From NCBI RefSeq assembly GCF_947498515.1, contig NZ_CANMKO010000001.1, positions 310,001-374,000 of the forward strand: DNA of 64,000 bases, read 5' to 3'. Shown here one piece after another: positions 15,993-20,350 of this stretch. This DNA is from an uncultured Pelagimonas sp. GTDB taxonomy: Bacteria; Pseudomonadota; Alphaproteobacteria; Rhodobacterales; Rhodobacteraceae. Position 1 is the stretch's first letter. Each line of letters starts with the position of its first letter. The notes beneath the pieces are model-generated. The model was not told where the DNA came from. It did not search any database and saw nothing but the letters and a program-made list of their open reading frames with translations. Position numbers and translations under genes: made by a program.

Positions 15993-16439
15993 TCAATCGT
16001 GAAAAAGCGGATCGCGTCGCGGCAATGGCCCGTGGCGCGATTTGTTTTTCTTGGGTCCCAATCCATTATTTGGGGGCGGTCCCCACTGGTTTTCGGTGGT
16101 TTGTCCCCGTTGCGCGGCGGCAATCGCCACAAAGACAAGTCCGCCCAAGAATAGAAAATTGAACACGGTCAAAACCGAGATAATGACAAAACAGGGCAGG
16201 GCGATCGCGCTCGACAATCCGATGTCATGCAATCGCCGTATCGAAAGTGAGACGCGCGGCAAGAGCAGCGCCCAAAACCATATCTGATAGGCATATCCCG
16301 GCATTCCGGCGGTCATCATCGCGGCTACGGGCAACACATCGACAATCAACACCACCCACCAGAATTCCGACCGCGACGCGCGACCGGAAAAATCCAGCGT
16401 TTTAGTGAAAAAACGGGGAACTGCGATGCTAGGACTCAT
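15993..16439 (-). CDS. DUF805 membrane protein
   Basis: A 148-residue protein with three or four membrane helices and the DUF805 signature: FTKTLDFSGRASRSEFWWV at the N-terminus and SIRRLHDIGLS in the middle. The tail is proline-rich with NQWGPPPNN, shared with the neighbouring paralogue. DUF805 proteins are small inner-membrane proteins of unknown function. It lies 24 bp downstream of a second DUF805 gene on the same strand, so the two form an operon that likely arose by duplication. Confidence 0.9.
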   Translation of the reverse strand: MSPSIAVPRFFTKTLDFSGRASRSEFWWVVLIVDVLPVAAMMTAGMPGYAYQIWFWALLLPRVSLSIRRLHDIGLSSAIALPCFVIISVLTVFNFLFLGGLVFVAIAAAQRGQTTENQWGPPPNNGLGPKKNKSRHGPLPRRDPLFHD

Positions 16440-16463
16440 ATCCGGGGCCTACCGTTAGCGGGG

Positions 16464-17057
16464 CTAAGCGCTGGCCCGGCCTAGCACATGGGTCTGATAA
16501 TAATCGCTAATCTGTTCGCGTTGTGCGGCCACTTCTTCCGGTGACGGCTCACGATTCAGCTTCAACAAAGTCGCATAGCTTTGACGGGCATCATGGGGGC
16601 GGGCCTCTCGCGCGGTGGTGGGGCCTGCTGCGGGTTCCTTGATCGCGTCAAAACCGGTGCGGCGCGTCGGTGTAGGGTTATGAGGCGGTTGCCCCCATTG
16701 GTTTTCTTCGGGCTCCGAGGGCAAGATCAGCAAAACCAACAACCAGATCGGTCCGACAATTGGGATCGAGTTGACGAAATACCACATGCCCGACCGACCT
16801 GCGTCATGCAGACGACGGATCAGGATCGTTGTGTTGGGAATAAAGGTCAAAAGCAACAGAACCGGTGTCAGATAGGCCAACGGATTGTAATTGGTCACAT
16901 GCGCCGTCGTGATCGTATAGATGTCGAGAACGGCTGCGATGGCCATAAAAACAAACATGATCAGCGCGACCCACCAATATTCTGCCCGCGTGGCGCGGCC
17001 TGAAATATTGAAAGCTTTGAAAATGTAGTTTTCTAGCGCGGTGTGAGGGCCAATCAT
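16464..17057 (-). CDS. DUF805 membrane protein with C-terminal extension
   Basis: A 197-residue paralogue of the next gene. Signature elements are IFKAFNISGRATRAEYWWV, LIRRLHDAGRSGMWYF and ENQWGQPPHN. Four membrane helices are likely within residues 25-130. After the NQWGQPP element it carries a ~75-residue soluble tail (ending in TLLKLNREPSPEEVAAQREQ...), which the smaller paralogue lacks. Function unknown. Confidence 0.9.
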   Translation of the reverse strand: MIGPHTALENYIFKAFNISGRATRAEYWWVALIMFVFMAIAAVLDIYTITTAHVTNYNPLAYLTPVLLLLTFIPNTTILIRRLHDAGRSGMWYFVNSIPIVGPIWLLVLLILPSEPEENQWGQPPHNPTPTRRTGFDAIKEPAAGPTTAREARPHDARQSYATLLKLNREPSPEEVAAQREQISDYYQTHVLGRASA

Positions 17058-17222: not shown

Positions 17223-18800
17223 TTAATAACCGATGGCACAGCCGTCTTTACGCGGGTCCGACGCCCCTTCAAGCACGCCATTGTCCCGGATTCTGATGGC
17301 TTGCGCTCCGCCAAGAGGACCATCAGGAGTTGTAATGTCATGCCCCCTGTCGGCGAGTTCACCCCGAACCCCATCGCCAAAGCCACGTTCCAATTGCAGC
17401 TTGCCGCCATCAACAAAACTACGAGGCGCGTCTAGGGCACTTTGCAAATCCATCCCATAATCAACCAGATTGGTCAGAACACGGGCATGGCCGTTGGGCT
17501 GATATTGCCCGCCCATCACGCCAAATGGCATGGTCACGCGGCCCTGTTCACGCAACATCGCCGGGATGATGGTGTGCATCGGGCGTTTACCCCCCGCAAG
17601 CTCGTTCGGGTGCCCGGAGACGAGCGAGAACCCTGCGCCACGGTTTTGAAACAAAACACCGAATTTTTCCGACGCGATCCCCGATCCAAAGCCATGAAAG
17701 ATCGAATAAATCAACGACACGGCCATGCGATCTCGGTCAACAACGGTGATGTAAATCGTGTCCTTGTGCACCGCCTCACTTAGGGCGGCGGGGGCCGTCA
17801 TCGCGCGGTTCATGTCGATCAAACCGGCCAGTTTCTCGGCGGTTTGCGGTGACAAAAGGTGGTCGAGCTTGGTCATATGCTCTGGATCTGCCAGAAACCG
17901 GTTGCGCGCATCATAGGCCAACTTCGCCGTCTCGGCTTCGATATGGACGCGATCCGCACCAAAGGGATCAAGGTTCGATAAATCGAAATGTGACAGGATG
18001 TTAAGCATCAGATGGGCAATAATGCCTTGGCCATTGGGCGGATGCTCCAACAACTCCTGCCCCTTATAGTCCCCGCTAACCGGGGATGTGATCGTACATG
18101 CGGTATCGGCGAAATCCTCAGCGCTATGTAGCCCGCCAAGGCCATTCAAAGTGGCCAGCATGTCGTCGAGCGCTTCACCTTCGTAAAATGCCGCGCGGCC
18201 ATCCTTGGCAATCTTGCGCAAAAGTTTGGCTTGCTTGGGAAGGGCAAACATGTCGCCGATCTTGGGAACTTGACCGTTCACCATGAAATCTTGACGGGCA
18301 CTACCCGTTAGGCATTTGCCGCTATTGGGCCAATCAAACGCCACGCGCGGCGCAACCGGAACGCCGGTTTCCATATAGTGGATGGCGGGGGCGAGGCTAT
18401 CGGCAAGGCCGAGCTTGCCCCATTTGTCCGACATGTTGCAAAACGCGTCAATCGCGCCGGGGATTGTGATGGCTTCGACATCGTGAACCGGCACGCTTGT
18501 ATGACCGGCGTCGCGCAAACGCTGGGCCGTTGCTGCGTTTGGTGCGCGGCCCGACCCGTTGACGGCAACGACCTCTTCGGACCCAGACGGAGAGACCAGC
18601 GCGAAACAATCCCCGCCGATACCCGTCATCTGGGGTTCGGCCACGCCAAGAAGAACTGCACCGGCGATGGCGGCGTCCATGGCATTGCCACCGCGGCGCA
18701 ACACATCCACCGCGGCCTGCGCCGCCAAGGGATGAGACGTGGCACACATACCATTGCTGGCATAAACCGCCGAACGGCCGGGAAGATGAAAGTCGCGCAT
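17223..18800 (-). CDS. Gamma-glutamyltransferase family protein
   Basis: A 525-residue Ntn-hydrolase of the GGT family, which hydrolyses or transfers gamma-glutamyl groups and self-cleaves into two subunits. Family features: GMCATSHPLAAQAAVDVLRRGGNAMDAAIA, cited as GGNAMDAAIA, at the N-terminus; the small-subunit start at HKDTIYITVVDRD, where the Thr after Asp aligns with the catalytic threonine of TTHxSVVD; and MPFGVMGGQYQPNGH. The residues after the threonine (I-Y) differ from the classical T-H, so substrate may differ (some members act on other acyl groups). No signal peptide is obvious. The start MRDFHLPGRS has AGGA about 12 bases upstream. Confidence 0.88.
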   Translation of the reverse strand: MRDFHLPGRSAVYASNGMCATSHPLAAQAAVDVLRRGGNAMDAAIAGAVLLGVAEPQMTGIGGDCFALVSPSGSEEVVAVNGSGRAPNAATAQRLRDAGHTSVPVHDVEAITIPGAIDAFCNMSDKWGKLGLADSLAPAIHYMETGVPVAPRVAFDWPNSGKCLTGSARQDFMVNGQVPKIGDMFALPKQAKLLRKIAKDGRAAFYEGEALDDMLATLNGLGGLHSAEDFADTACTITSPVSGDYKGQELLEHPPNGQGIIAHLMLNILSHFDLSNLDPFGADRVHIEAETAKLAYDARNRFLADPEHMTKLDHLLSPQTAEKLAGLIDMNRAMTAPAALSEAVHKDTIYITVVDRDRMAVSLIYSIFHGFGSGIASEKFGVLFQNRGAGFSLVSGHPNELAGGKRPMHTIIPAMLREQGRVTMPFGVMGGQYQPNGHARVLTNLVDYGMDLQSALDAPRSFVDGGKLQLERGFGDGVRGELADRGHDITTPDGPLGGAQAIRIRDNGVLEGASDPRKDGCAIGY

Positions 18801-18879
18801 ATAGTTTTTGATCCTGTTGTTCGGTTTGAACAATAGGAGCGACGCGCGGCAGGTCAATATCATGCGGGAGATTGCTGTG

Positions 18880-18960
18880 TAGATCCTCGGTATCGCGCAC
18901 TGGGTGGGGGCTGTAACACGCGATACCGAGGGAAGCCTATGCAGCTACAAGACCCGTTAT
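18880..18960 (-). repeat. Structured repeat element, copy 1 of 3
   Basis: Perfect 12-bp stem: CTCGGTATCGCG (18886-18897) and CGCGATACCGAG (18919-18930), enclosing a 21-base loop that is G-rich on plus and C-rich on minus. About 30 conserved bases follow on the plus side (GGAAGCCTATGCAGCTACAA). The same element recurs at 19077 and 19291. Strand is given as minus because imperfect pairs in the other copies become G-U wobbles only there. Confidence 0.8.
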
Positions 18961-19076
18961 TGCCTGAGAATGGGGTTAGATTGTGACCCTGCAAAGGTTT
19001 GAATCAGGCAGGTAAAATTGCTTGGATTTCAAGCGGTAAGCCGGAGTGGTTGCGCTGTTTTGGGGAGGGTAGCTGA

Positions 19077-19157
19077 TAGTCCTCGGTGCCGCGCACTGGG
19101 TGGGGGCTAAAACACGCGGCACCAAGGGAAGCCTATGCAGCTACAAGACACGTTATG
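19077..19157 (-). repeat. Structured repeat element, copy 2 of 3
   Basis: Arms CTCGGTGCCGCG (19082-19093) and CGCGGCACCAAG (19115-19126). Relative to copy 1, stem positions 7 and 8 change as pairs (A-T to G-C, T-A to C-G), preserving the stem. The one imperfect pair (position 3, C opposite A) is G-U on the minus strand. The loop differs from copy 1 by only two bases and the flank GGAAGCCTATGCAGCTACAA is identical. Confidence 0.8.
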
Positions 19158-19290
19158 GCGGGCAGTTGCGGCATGAATGCGACAAGAAAAGGGAAACTCT
19201 CAGGCGTATTCTCGTCCGACAATTGCACGCGCAAACGCGGACCTCGCCCAAAAGGGCGCGCCGTCAGTCAACTCAATTTTGGGGAAAGTG

Positions 19291-19370
19291 TAGTCCTCGA
19301 CACCGTGCACTGGGTGGGGGCTAAAACACACGGTGCCGAGGGAAGCTATATGCAGCTACAAGACCGTGTA
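19291..19370 (-). repeat. Structured repeat element, copy 3 of 3
   Basis: Arms CTCGACACCGTG (19296-19307) and CACGGTGCCGAG (19329-19340). Relative to the other copies, positions 6 (T-A to C-G) and 11 (C-G to T-A) change in a compensatory way; position 5 is A opposite C on plus, a U-G wobble on minus. The loop is identical to copy 2. Sequence between copies is not conserved, so the element itself is the unit. Confidence 0.8.
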
Positions 19371-19435
19371 TGGTGCCGAATTCTGCCCCGAATGTGGCGC
19401 GGCCAAGGTGTTTTAAAGACATCGCGCCAAAGACG

Positions 19436-19900
19436 TTATCCTTTGGCGCTCATCTGTATTGGCATCTCGAGACTGAGATGGTTCTCAGCGCCTTTACGCT
19501 CGTAAATCAATCGATCGCTCAAGCTTTGAATCAGGTACCAGCCAAATCCCCCTTCGGGCATGAGCTGCATGTCCACATCCAGATTGGCGGGGGTGCCCGC
19601 AGGCAATGCCCCCTCGGGCATGGCGGCCCCGGTGTCGATGAACCCGGCAAGAACGCGGGTTTCGTCAAACTCAACATCGAATCGGATTTCGCCATTGGGG
19701 CTTTCCCCATAGGCATGCTCAACAATATTGTTGAGCACTTCGGCAATCACCAGTTCCCACATGTCGCCGGGACAGGTGAAAAAGCTCTGCGATTCCAGAT
19801 CACAGCGCAACGATGTCAACGTCTCTCGCACGGCTTCCGGCGTGCTATGAAGCACGTAGCGGAAAGCCAAGACGTTCTGGTCGCCTGATTTGCCGGTCAT
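19436..19900 (-). CDS. ATP-binding anti-sigma-type protein (RsbW/SpoIIAB-like)
   Basis: A 154-residue HATPase_c_2 protein. The N box is ELVIAEVLNNIVEHAYGES, and the G2-like lid is GGFGWYLIQSLSD; the G1 region is IDTGAAMP. Such proteins are serine kinases that phosphorylate a STAS antagonist and bind a sigma factor or other target in partner-switching circuits. The start MTGKSGDQ was chosen (GGAG at -11); a start 22 codons earlier would overlap the STAS gene by 38 bp. Operonic with the upstream STAS gene. No sigma factor or PP2C phosphatase is in this window. Confidence 0.83.
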   Translation of the reverse strand: MTGKSGDQNVLAFRYVLHSTPEAVRETLTSLRCDLESQSFFTCPGDMWELVIAEVLNNIVEHAYGESPNGEIRFDVEFDETRVLAGFIDTGAAMPEGALPAGTPANLDVDMQLMPEGGFGWYLIQSLSDRLIYERKGAENHLSLEMPIQMSAKG

Positions 19901-19928
19901 GTAGGGAACTCCGATCAGAACCAGACAA

Positions 19929-20264
19929 TCAGGCGCTTTGAGCCCGTGCCTCTTGGGCACTGTCATGAATGGTAAAGATCGAATCCATTCGGGTCATGCG
20001 AAACACCTTGTCTACAGCCGGGGTCAGCCCGGCAAGTTCAAGTTTGCCACCGGCGGGCATGAGTTTCATCGCCGCGACGATAGCCCCCAAACCGCTCGAA
20101 TCGATAAAGCTCACTTTGTTTAGATCCAGAATCATACGGCCGCTAAAATTGGCCATCTGTTCACGCATCTTGTCTTTGAAGGAAATCGCTACAGCTGCAT
20201 CAATACGCTCTGCTTCAACAGTGATAACACTGACGTTTCCGTTGGTCTGGGTTGAAAAATCCAT
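19929..20264 (-). CDS. STAS-domain anti-anti-sigma factor (RsbV/SpoIIAA-like)
   Basis: A 111-residue single STAS domain. The phosphoacceptor site is VSFIDSSGLGAIVAA, with Ser56 aligning to the phosphorylated serine of SpoIIAA. It would bind the adjacent RsbW-like kinase when unphosphorylated and release the kinase's target. The start MDFSTQTNGN was chosen because GAGG lies seven bases upstream; an in-frame ATG nine codons earlier also has an AGGG and cannot be excluded. The gap to the kinase gene is 28 bp. Confidence 0.87.
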   Translation of the reverse strand: MDFSTQTNGNVSVITVEAERIDAAVAISFKDKMREQMANFSGRMILDLNKVSFIDSSGLGAIVAAMKLMPAGGKLELAGLTPAVDKVFRMTRMDSIFTIHDSAQEARAQSA

Positions 20265-20350
20265 GCTGGCCTCTTTGCTCAAGTCATTCAAACCCTAGAC
20301 GCCATTCCTTACCATTCGGTATGCAGGTGCAGAAAATTGGAGGATAATTC

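Follow-up and report, generated by a model that had tools for sequence, protein, structure and literature searches.

A probable trans-acting antisense sRNA family of Rhodobacteraceae, with three tandem copies between an RsbW-like gene and ggt

Locus architecture and conserved synteny

The window, i.e. the whole 64,000-nucleotide stretch of DNA that was analysed, carries three tandem elements of about 80 nt (18884–18963, 19080–19159 and 19294–19373) between a partner-switch gene pair and a gamma-glutamyltransferase gene (ggt), all on the minus strand (Table 1). This tandem layout had been noticed in an earlier sequence-only reading, whose spacings of 192 and 212 bp were slightly too small; the start-to-start distances are 196 and 214 bp. 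Read on the minus strand, each copy consists of GUAGCUGCAU(A)-GGCUUCC, followed by a stem of 13–14 bp, longer than the 12 bp given previously, and a loop ..AGCCCCCACCCAGUG. Copy 1 comprises a 5' mini-hairpin, GUAGCUGCAUAGGCU, and a 13–14 bp hairpin with loop ..ACAGCCCCCACCCAGUG. Further copies were not found elsewhere in the source genome with either BLASTN or the covariance model R1 described below. Beyond ggt, at 15993–17057 on the minus strand, two adjacent ORFs encode small membrane protein-like products of one family, which we take to be DUF805.

Table 1. Coordinates of the features at the locus (positions in the window).
Feature	Position	Strand	Remarks
gamma-Glutamyltransferase gene (ggt)	17223..18800	-	ATG taken at 18800-18798; listed ORF runs to 18863
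Possible separate sigma70-like ggt promoter	18830..18857	-	TTGACC, 16 nt, TATTGT; 3' of last sRNA copy
sRNA copy 1 (last in transcription order)	18876..18948	-	R1 match G000:C1:328876-328948, E 6.7e-18
Hairpin arms, copy 1	18885-18897/18919-18931	-
Putative promoter, copy 1	18956..19009	-	Four degenerate 11-bp units GCC/ACC/GTC/ACC and CAATAAC -10-like box; register -61; below background threshold
sRNA copy 2	19072..19144	-	R1 match E 1.7e-17; arms 19081-19093/19115-19127
Putative promoter, copy 2	19152..19205	-	11-bp units GCC/TCC/GTC/GCC and CATAAC box; array score 10.5
sRNA copy 3 (first in transcription order)	19286..19359	-	R1 match E 3.6e-18
Putative promoter, copy 3	19366..19420	-	Degenerate 11-bp units GTC/ACC/GCC/GGC and CATACAC box; below background threshold
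RsbW-like ATPase gene (HATPase_c_2), upstream neighbour	19436..19966	-	RsbW models below cut-off
STAS anti-anti-sigma protein gene, upstream neighbour	19929..20291	-

The position between the partner-switch pair and ggt had been recorded correctly and called unexplained; it is the usual place of what we designate class 1 elements throughout the family. Among 87 loci searched with tblastn, some of which are cut by locus ends, 81 have the RsbW-like gene upstream in the same orientation, 79 the STAS gene upstream, 75 ggt downstream, and 59 an upstream thiolase gene on the opposite strand. A divergent copy occupies the same RsbW-like/ggt place in genome G053, which we take to be R. sphaeroides.

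Family distribution

With copy 1 as the BLASTN query, 28 of 101 genomes, among them the source genome, proved to contain relatives. The exact loop pattern matched at least 120 stretches, and the loop pattern combined with the 5' motif at least 94; by their record titles, the matches listed for this combination all came from Rhodobacteraceae, other alphaproteobacteria or further genomes of the family. Alignment A3, from which R1 was built, combines the copy from the window with 34 sequences that are about 14% or more apart (35 rows in total, of which row 3 lacks 7 nt at the 5' end). The loop CCCCCACCC is present in all three copies of the window and in nearly all A3 rows; because many A3 loci were chosen by the loop itself, its invariance there is partly by construction. 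It is also kept in BLASTN-found relatives and in divergent model matches, e.g., L199 and L200. Altered loops occur in some weak model matches (L208, L215, L216 and L221), and in L089, from an R. pomeroyi strain, the loop pattern is present and the hairpin is not.

A covariance-model search of related genomes, proposed in the earlier reading, returned matches at E≤0.01 in 302 of 395 Rhodobacteraceae genomes and 261 of 329 genera, a count that pools both classes of the RNA (see below) and may include a few chance hits among the weakest matches. Among 290 genomes sampled across the class, R1 matched only four, all of them Rhodobacteraceae. Most matching genomes by far contain one or two matches, nine contain three and a single one four, and a second match can lie at an unlinked place; the tandem arrangement is thus a feature of the lineage and not a rule of the family. 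The suggestion that the element represents a distinct family agrees with Rfam, in which the window and eight further loci gave no match at gathering score (one match, E 9.2, fell far below it). No description of this RNA turned up in the article texts searched, and the words glutamyl and anti-sigma were absent from the accessible parts of sRNA papers on R. pomeroyi and P. denitrificans (PMC4809877, PMC5107571).

Two records stand out by their titles. The contig of L039 (JAFKDC010000008.1, titled Enemella evansiae, an actinobacterium) holds the same element as the alphaproteobacterial contig G004:C8, both being 203243 bp long, which probably reflects contamination or mislabelling of the assembly. 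A Rhodobacteraceae-type element is also present in L100, whose title is Flavobacteriia.

Consensus structure and coding strand

RNAalifold applied to A3 yielded a consensus of a small 5' helix and a long helix, the former lying within the conserved segment that had been described as preceding each hairpin. Pairing was found in 98.7% of 626 cells of the 35-sequence alignment, with 12 of 18 pairs varying on both sides, and fell to 31–52% of cells in slid controls. The significance of covariation, a check recommended in the earlier reading, was assessed with shuffles, and none of 500 reached any of five measures, although these shuffles ignore relatedness. The long stem contains 66 G-U/U-G cells against two A-C cells in the A3 pair table, which assigns the RNA to the minus strand. 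Within the window, the compensating stem changes between copies were as reported, and so was the imperfect pair of copies 2 and 3, which is C-A on the plus strand and G-U on the minus strand. Stem covariation together with G-U pairs that fit the minus strand only thus upholds the earlier proposal of a structured minus-strand RNA family.

Variation of the 5' helix within A3 is confined to one side, with U-A or U-G at the variable pair. Outside this alignment, that pair is G-C in 8 of the 13 class 2 sequences (AGCG..CGCU) and in the R. sphaeroides-like copy (AGCGG..CCGCU).

A second class at unlinked loci

For the second class, 63 model-match loci were surveyed, comprising the 30 top matches, 30 from 40 genomes whose best match was weak, and three more. 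The ggt gene was present in 42 of these, and ggt, RsbW and STAS were all absent in 15. The latter 15 were inspected together with L201, L224, L225 and L235. The loop was not found in L201 and L209, and L222, L224, L225 and L235 were set aside for their likeness to class 1 or their proximity to class 1 genes; 13 loci were kept as class 2 (L202, L204, L206, L207, L210, L212, L213, L214, L217, L218, L220, L227 and L229). Class 2 is unlinked to the class 1 locus and has the same loop and promoter pattern.

The longest downstream ORF begins like S-(hydroxymethyl)glutathione dehydrogenase in 5 of the 13 loci; in L213, where it is cut by the locus end, it matches TIGR02818 with 530.9 bits (cut-off 543.95). 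In L210, an agmatinase gene lies upstream. Both classes can thus adjoin genes of glutathione-linked enzymes, gamma-glutamyltransferase in class 1 and S-(hydroxymethyl)glutathione dehydrogenase in class 2, which may be chance or reflect a functional link.

Promoters and 11-bp repeats

The sequence upstream of the RNA has CC dinucleotides at 11-bp intervals, and the CC positions are the most informative of a 105-row profile, in which four rows come from unrelated bacteria (L075, L104, L113 and L128) and some anchors are shifted; later sets were re-anchored. In 77 non-redundant class 1 upstream sequences, CC pairs at lag 11 numbered 150 against 36.6 in shuffles (z 18), with further peaks at lags 22 (z 16) and 33 (z 9), and the best four-unit register begins at -61 or -60 in 64 of the 77. 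The 13 class 2 promoters behave alike (52 against 13.2 at lag 11; 0 of 500 shuffles as high). The direct repeat GCC-N8-GCC was found in 33 of 77 class 1 upstreams (60 nt), 10 of 13 class 2 upstreams (70 nt) and 8 of 9 upstreams of the candidate target gene presented below (70 nt), where it lies near the probable core promoter. The background was 189 of 5000 60-nt windows, and five other spacings gave 0–5 of 77, 0–2 of 13 and 0 of 9, respectively.

In the source genome, the units upstream of the sRNA copies are degenerate. The array score of 10.5 of the copy 2 promoter is equalled or exceeded at four unrelated places in the window, and a four-repeat promoter scan of the whole genome gave 9+5 hits against 13+7 in the reversed control and missed the sRNA copies. 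The same genome encodes in one cluster an OmpR-type regulator (chvI), a ChvG-like kinase (chvG) and hprK, the genes beside it presumably being rapZ and pckA. The kinase has ChvG as its best NCBIfam match (357 bits, below the cut-off of 740) and contains PF13755. Autoregulation of chvI through such arrays was considered and rejected, as no three- or four-unit array was seen above threshold in the chvI–pckA gap, lone two-unit repeats being outside the score.

By sequence comparison, the GCC repeats of the family have the spacing of N-GCC-N8-GCC, which the part of PMC9731502 available to us quotes, second-hand, as the ChvI consensus of S. meliloti; the same source gives the Caulobacter ChvI motif as TTGC-N3-GCAA. 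ChvI is the best candidate for the activator. The RNA might instead be a genuine sRNA whose 11-bp repeats are DNA-bending phased A-tracts or the site of another regulator, with ChvI not involved, a reading that we regard as possible but not likely. It would account for the A-rich positions that recur along with the GCC units and for the motif not being in excess in the source genome, and the comparison with ChvI sites is one with a quoted consensus. Set against it are the concentration of information at the CC positions and the identity in spacing just mentioned. Another regulator, CenR, was rejected, since its motif as stated in the accessible part of PMC9275681, TGA-N8-TGA, does not fit the repeats.

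A candidate target: the leader of an exported-protein gene

A scan for the loop complement, with the pattern YTGGGTGGGGG, found 104 places in 31 genomes. The 19 family genomes account for 77 of these places and contain the reversed pattern 49 times; as no fewer than 16 of the 77 belong to the sRNA elements, a marked genome-wide excess is not apparent. Of 20 places examined closely, from 8 of the 31 genomes, two belong to the gene of an exported protein, and no common gene was noticed at the others; in L273 and L284, an ORF start follows the complement at 57 and 47 nt, respectively. The source genome has five complements, three in the elements themselves (antisense) and two others. The leader of the same exported protein holds one of these and one complement of the congener G001; in G001 all 14 nt of the site are complementary to the loop, and in the source genome one of the pairs is G-U. 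The gene is absent from a second congener, G002, and its product gave no match in Pfam or the PDB. Homologues were detected in 14 of 395 genomes, so this target cannot explain the conservation of the sRNA family. Next to its stop codon, a long GA-dinucleotide run is seen in the source genome (L288, contig C7, near 97,700) and also in the congener locus L271.

Nine close homologues (identity about 47% or more; 8 of the 14 genomes plus G001) were compared, and the sRNA is present in all nine genomes. Their mRNA leaders share an invariant GGUGGGGGCC, complementary to the sRNA loop, within the likewise invariant motif GGTGGGGGCC, whose UGGGGG starts 27–31 nt before the ATG. As the whole leader is well conserved, this invariance is partly general conservation. 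The flanking arms change together and remain mostly complementary (CAGG/CCUG, GUAGG/CCUAC, UCGG/CCGA and CGGG/CCCG); those of the source genome are weak, at about 4 bp. The predicted fold contains the hairpin in six of eight leaders, the exceptions being L268 (source genome) and L293, with L289 outside the set. Loop–leader duplexes calculated for eight leaders ranged from -22 to -33 kcal/mol, and 0 to 2 of 200 shuffles were as good. Among distant homologues, five that could be aligned are without the leader motif, and one more gave no alignment. When 1.55 Mb of collected DNA, biased by the way its loci were chosen, was scanned for ORFs preceded by a hairpin of this kind with at least 5 bp, 20 rows resulted, seven of which are the target gene; one other gene appeared twice (L138 and L222), with different loops.

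The C-rich loop had been described as potentially able to pair with Shine-Dalgarno sequences. Its role as a probable pairing site is supported, and the sole evidence on the target side concerns a G-rich segment that lies just 5' of the Shine-Dalgarno sequence, not that sequence itself. A loop acting as a generic anti-Shine-Dalgarno element or as a C-rich, protein-binding decoy, with a coincidental match in the exported-protein leader, would fit a loop that is widespread and a target that is rare in the family, the lack of a marked excess of complements and the choice of this target out of 104 places. We nevertheless consider it unlikely, given the motif kept in 9 of 9 close homologues between arms that co-change, and the prominence of the gene in the hairpin scan (7 of 20 rows, in that biased sample).

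Relationship of the RNA to ggt

The elements could also be a cis-acting 5' leader, i.e. an attenuator or sensor, of the downstream ggt. The distance from RNA nucleotide 55 to the ggt start is 61–145 nt in 72 of 78 loci with a recognised start, and ggt is the next gene in 75 of 87. A strong terminator was not seen after the RNA; TTTT follows the stem in only 7 of 90 elements, which leaves the 3' end of the RNA uncertain and read-through into ggt possible. Of the 73 loci with a recognised ggt start within 170 nt, 40 have a -35/-10-like pattern in the interval that separates the RNA from ggt, and 33 do not show one; shuffles gave a mean of 2.5 and a maximum of 8. RNA and ggt are thus probably separate units. 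With promoter-like sequence before every tandem copy, the same loop in class 2 loci that have no ggt, and complementarity of the loop to the leader of a different gene, a ggt leader appears improbable, more so than the decoy. A REP-like or mobile palindrome, suggested by hairpins in tandem, can be set aside, as it is contradicted by the copy number (three in the source genome, at a single locus), the conserved synteny and the strand-specific G-U pairs, and REP dispersal, which the earlier reading had named as a possible refutation, is excluded.

Proposed mechanism

The probable explanation is that the element is a trans-acting antisense sRNA under envelope-stress (ChvGI-type) control that pairs with an mRNA leader and works like Caulobacter ChvR. 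Each of the three copies would be a base-pairing RNA of about 70–80 nt, probably transcribed from its own minus-strand promoter. The activator would most likely be an OmpR-family response regulator bound to GCC direct repeats spaced 11 bp apart, with ChvI of the ChvG–ChvI envelope-stress system as the best candidate. The RNA may be viewed as a presentation scaffold, a small 5' hairpin followed by a long one whose stem drifts and whose loop, CCCCCACCC, is nearly fixed. This loop would pair with the G-rich GGUGGGGGCC of the target leader, which in most homologues is predicted to be the loop of a small hairpin. A duplex of 9–14 bp would open the leader hairpin and occupy the spot directly upstream of the ribosome-binding site, and the presumed outcome would be lowered translation or mRNA stability of this target and possibly of further ones.

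More tentatively, the data may reflect an old riboregulon of Rhodobacteraceae, in which at least two unlinked sRNA classes with 11-bp GCC-repeat (ChvI-type) promoters share CCCCCACCC as a common key to mRNAs with 5' UGGGGG hairpin locks, and regulator sites in the target promoter add a second level of control; we hold this broader picture to be conceivable without favouring it. The sRNA occurs in about three quarters of the sampled members of a major marine group and has no Rfam family, and its promoter pattern, locus and candidate target site make a post-transcriptional arm of the envelope-stress response in Rhodobacteraceae directly testable. Should ChvI drive the sRNA, the recruitment of antisense sRNAs by ChvGI, at unrelated loci, would extend to a second alphaproteobacterial order.

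Comparison with known sRNAs

The closest parallel is ChvR of Caulobacter crescentus, described in the accessible part of PMC6237742 as a short RNA of 84 nt that has a promoter of its own and is controlled by ChvI–ChvG; a separate promoter and this control are presumed for the present RNA. As described there, hairpin regions of ChvR pair with two sites in the chvT leader, one of them at the very 5' end, where the prediction shows a weak stem-loop; binding of ChvI to the chvT promoter region as well is stated in the part of PMC9731502 at hand. From the same partial accounts, ChvR adjoins recF and targets a TonB-dependent receptor, ChvT, whereas the element studied here sits between an RsbW-like gene and ggt, and its candidate target is an exported protein. 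Membership of the ChvR family is not claimed, because the locus differs and the likeness rests on descriptions and not on sequence comparison. RusT, also from Caulobacter, parallels the proposed scheme in being an sRNA under an envelope-tied two-component system that pairs via its second hairpin, but it is 118 nt long, NtrYX-controlled, Hfq-bound and encoded at another locus, as given in the available part of PMC11005374.

The CcsR/cuckoo RNAs of Rhodobacter resemble the elements in their several copies and C-rich loop. Their loop motif, which we take to be CCUCCUCCC, is missing from the element, as had been stated in the earlier reading. CcsR1–4 are processed from a precursor, according to the accessible part of PMC8307010; each copy here has promoter-like sequence.

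StsR of Rhodobacter sphaeroides is comparable in length (about 72 nt), stress-linked and from the same bacterial family, but it is controlled by RpoHI/RpoHII, as far as the available parts of PMC8307010 and PMC11354728 state. Identity with StsR, prompted by the similar length of 72 nt, was ruled out by probe sequence and locus. No sequence complementary to the StsR probe, GGACAGTGAAGGTAGAACGG, was found with up to three mismatches in the window and a first set of collected loci, and in G053 the exact probe match lies 771 kb from the element. With up to one mismatch, the probe sequence occurred in only 2 of 395 family genomes (L197 and L198), and that part of StsR therefore looks narrow in distribution or fast-evolving.
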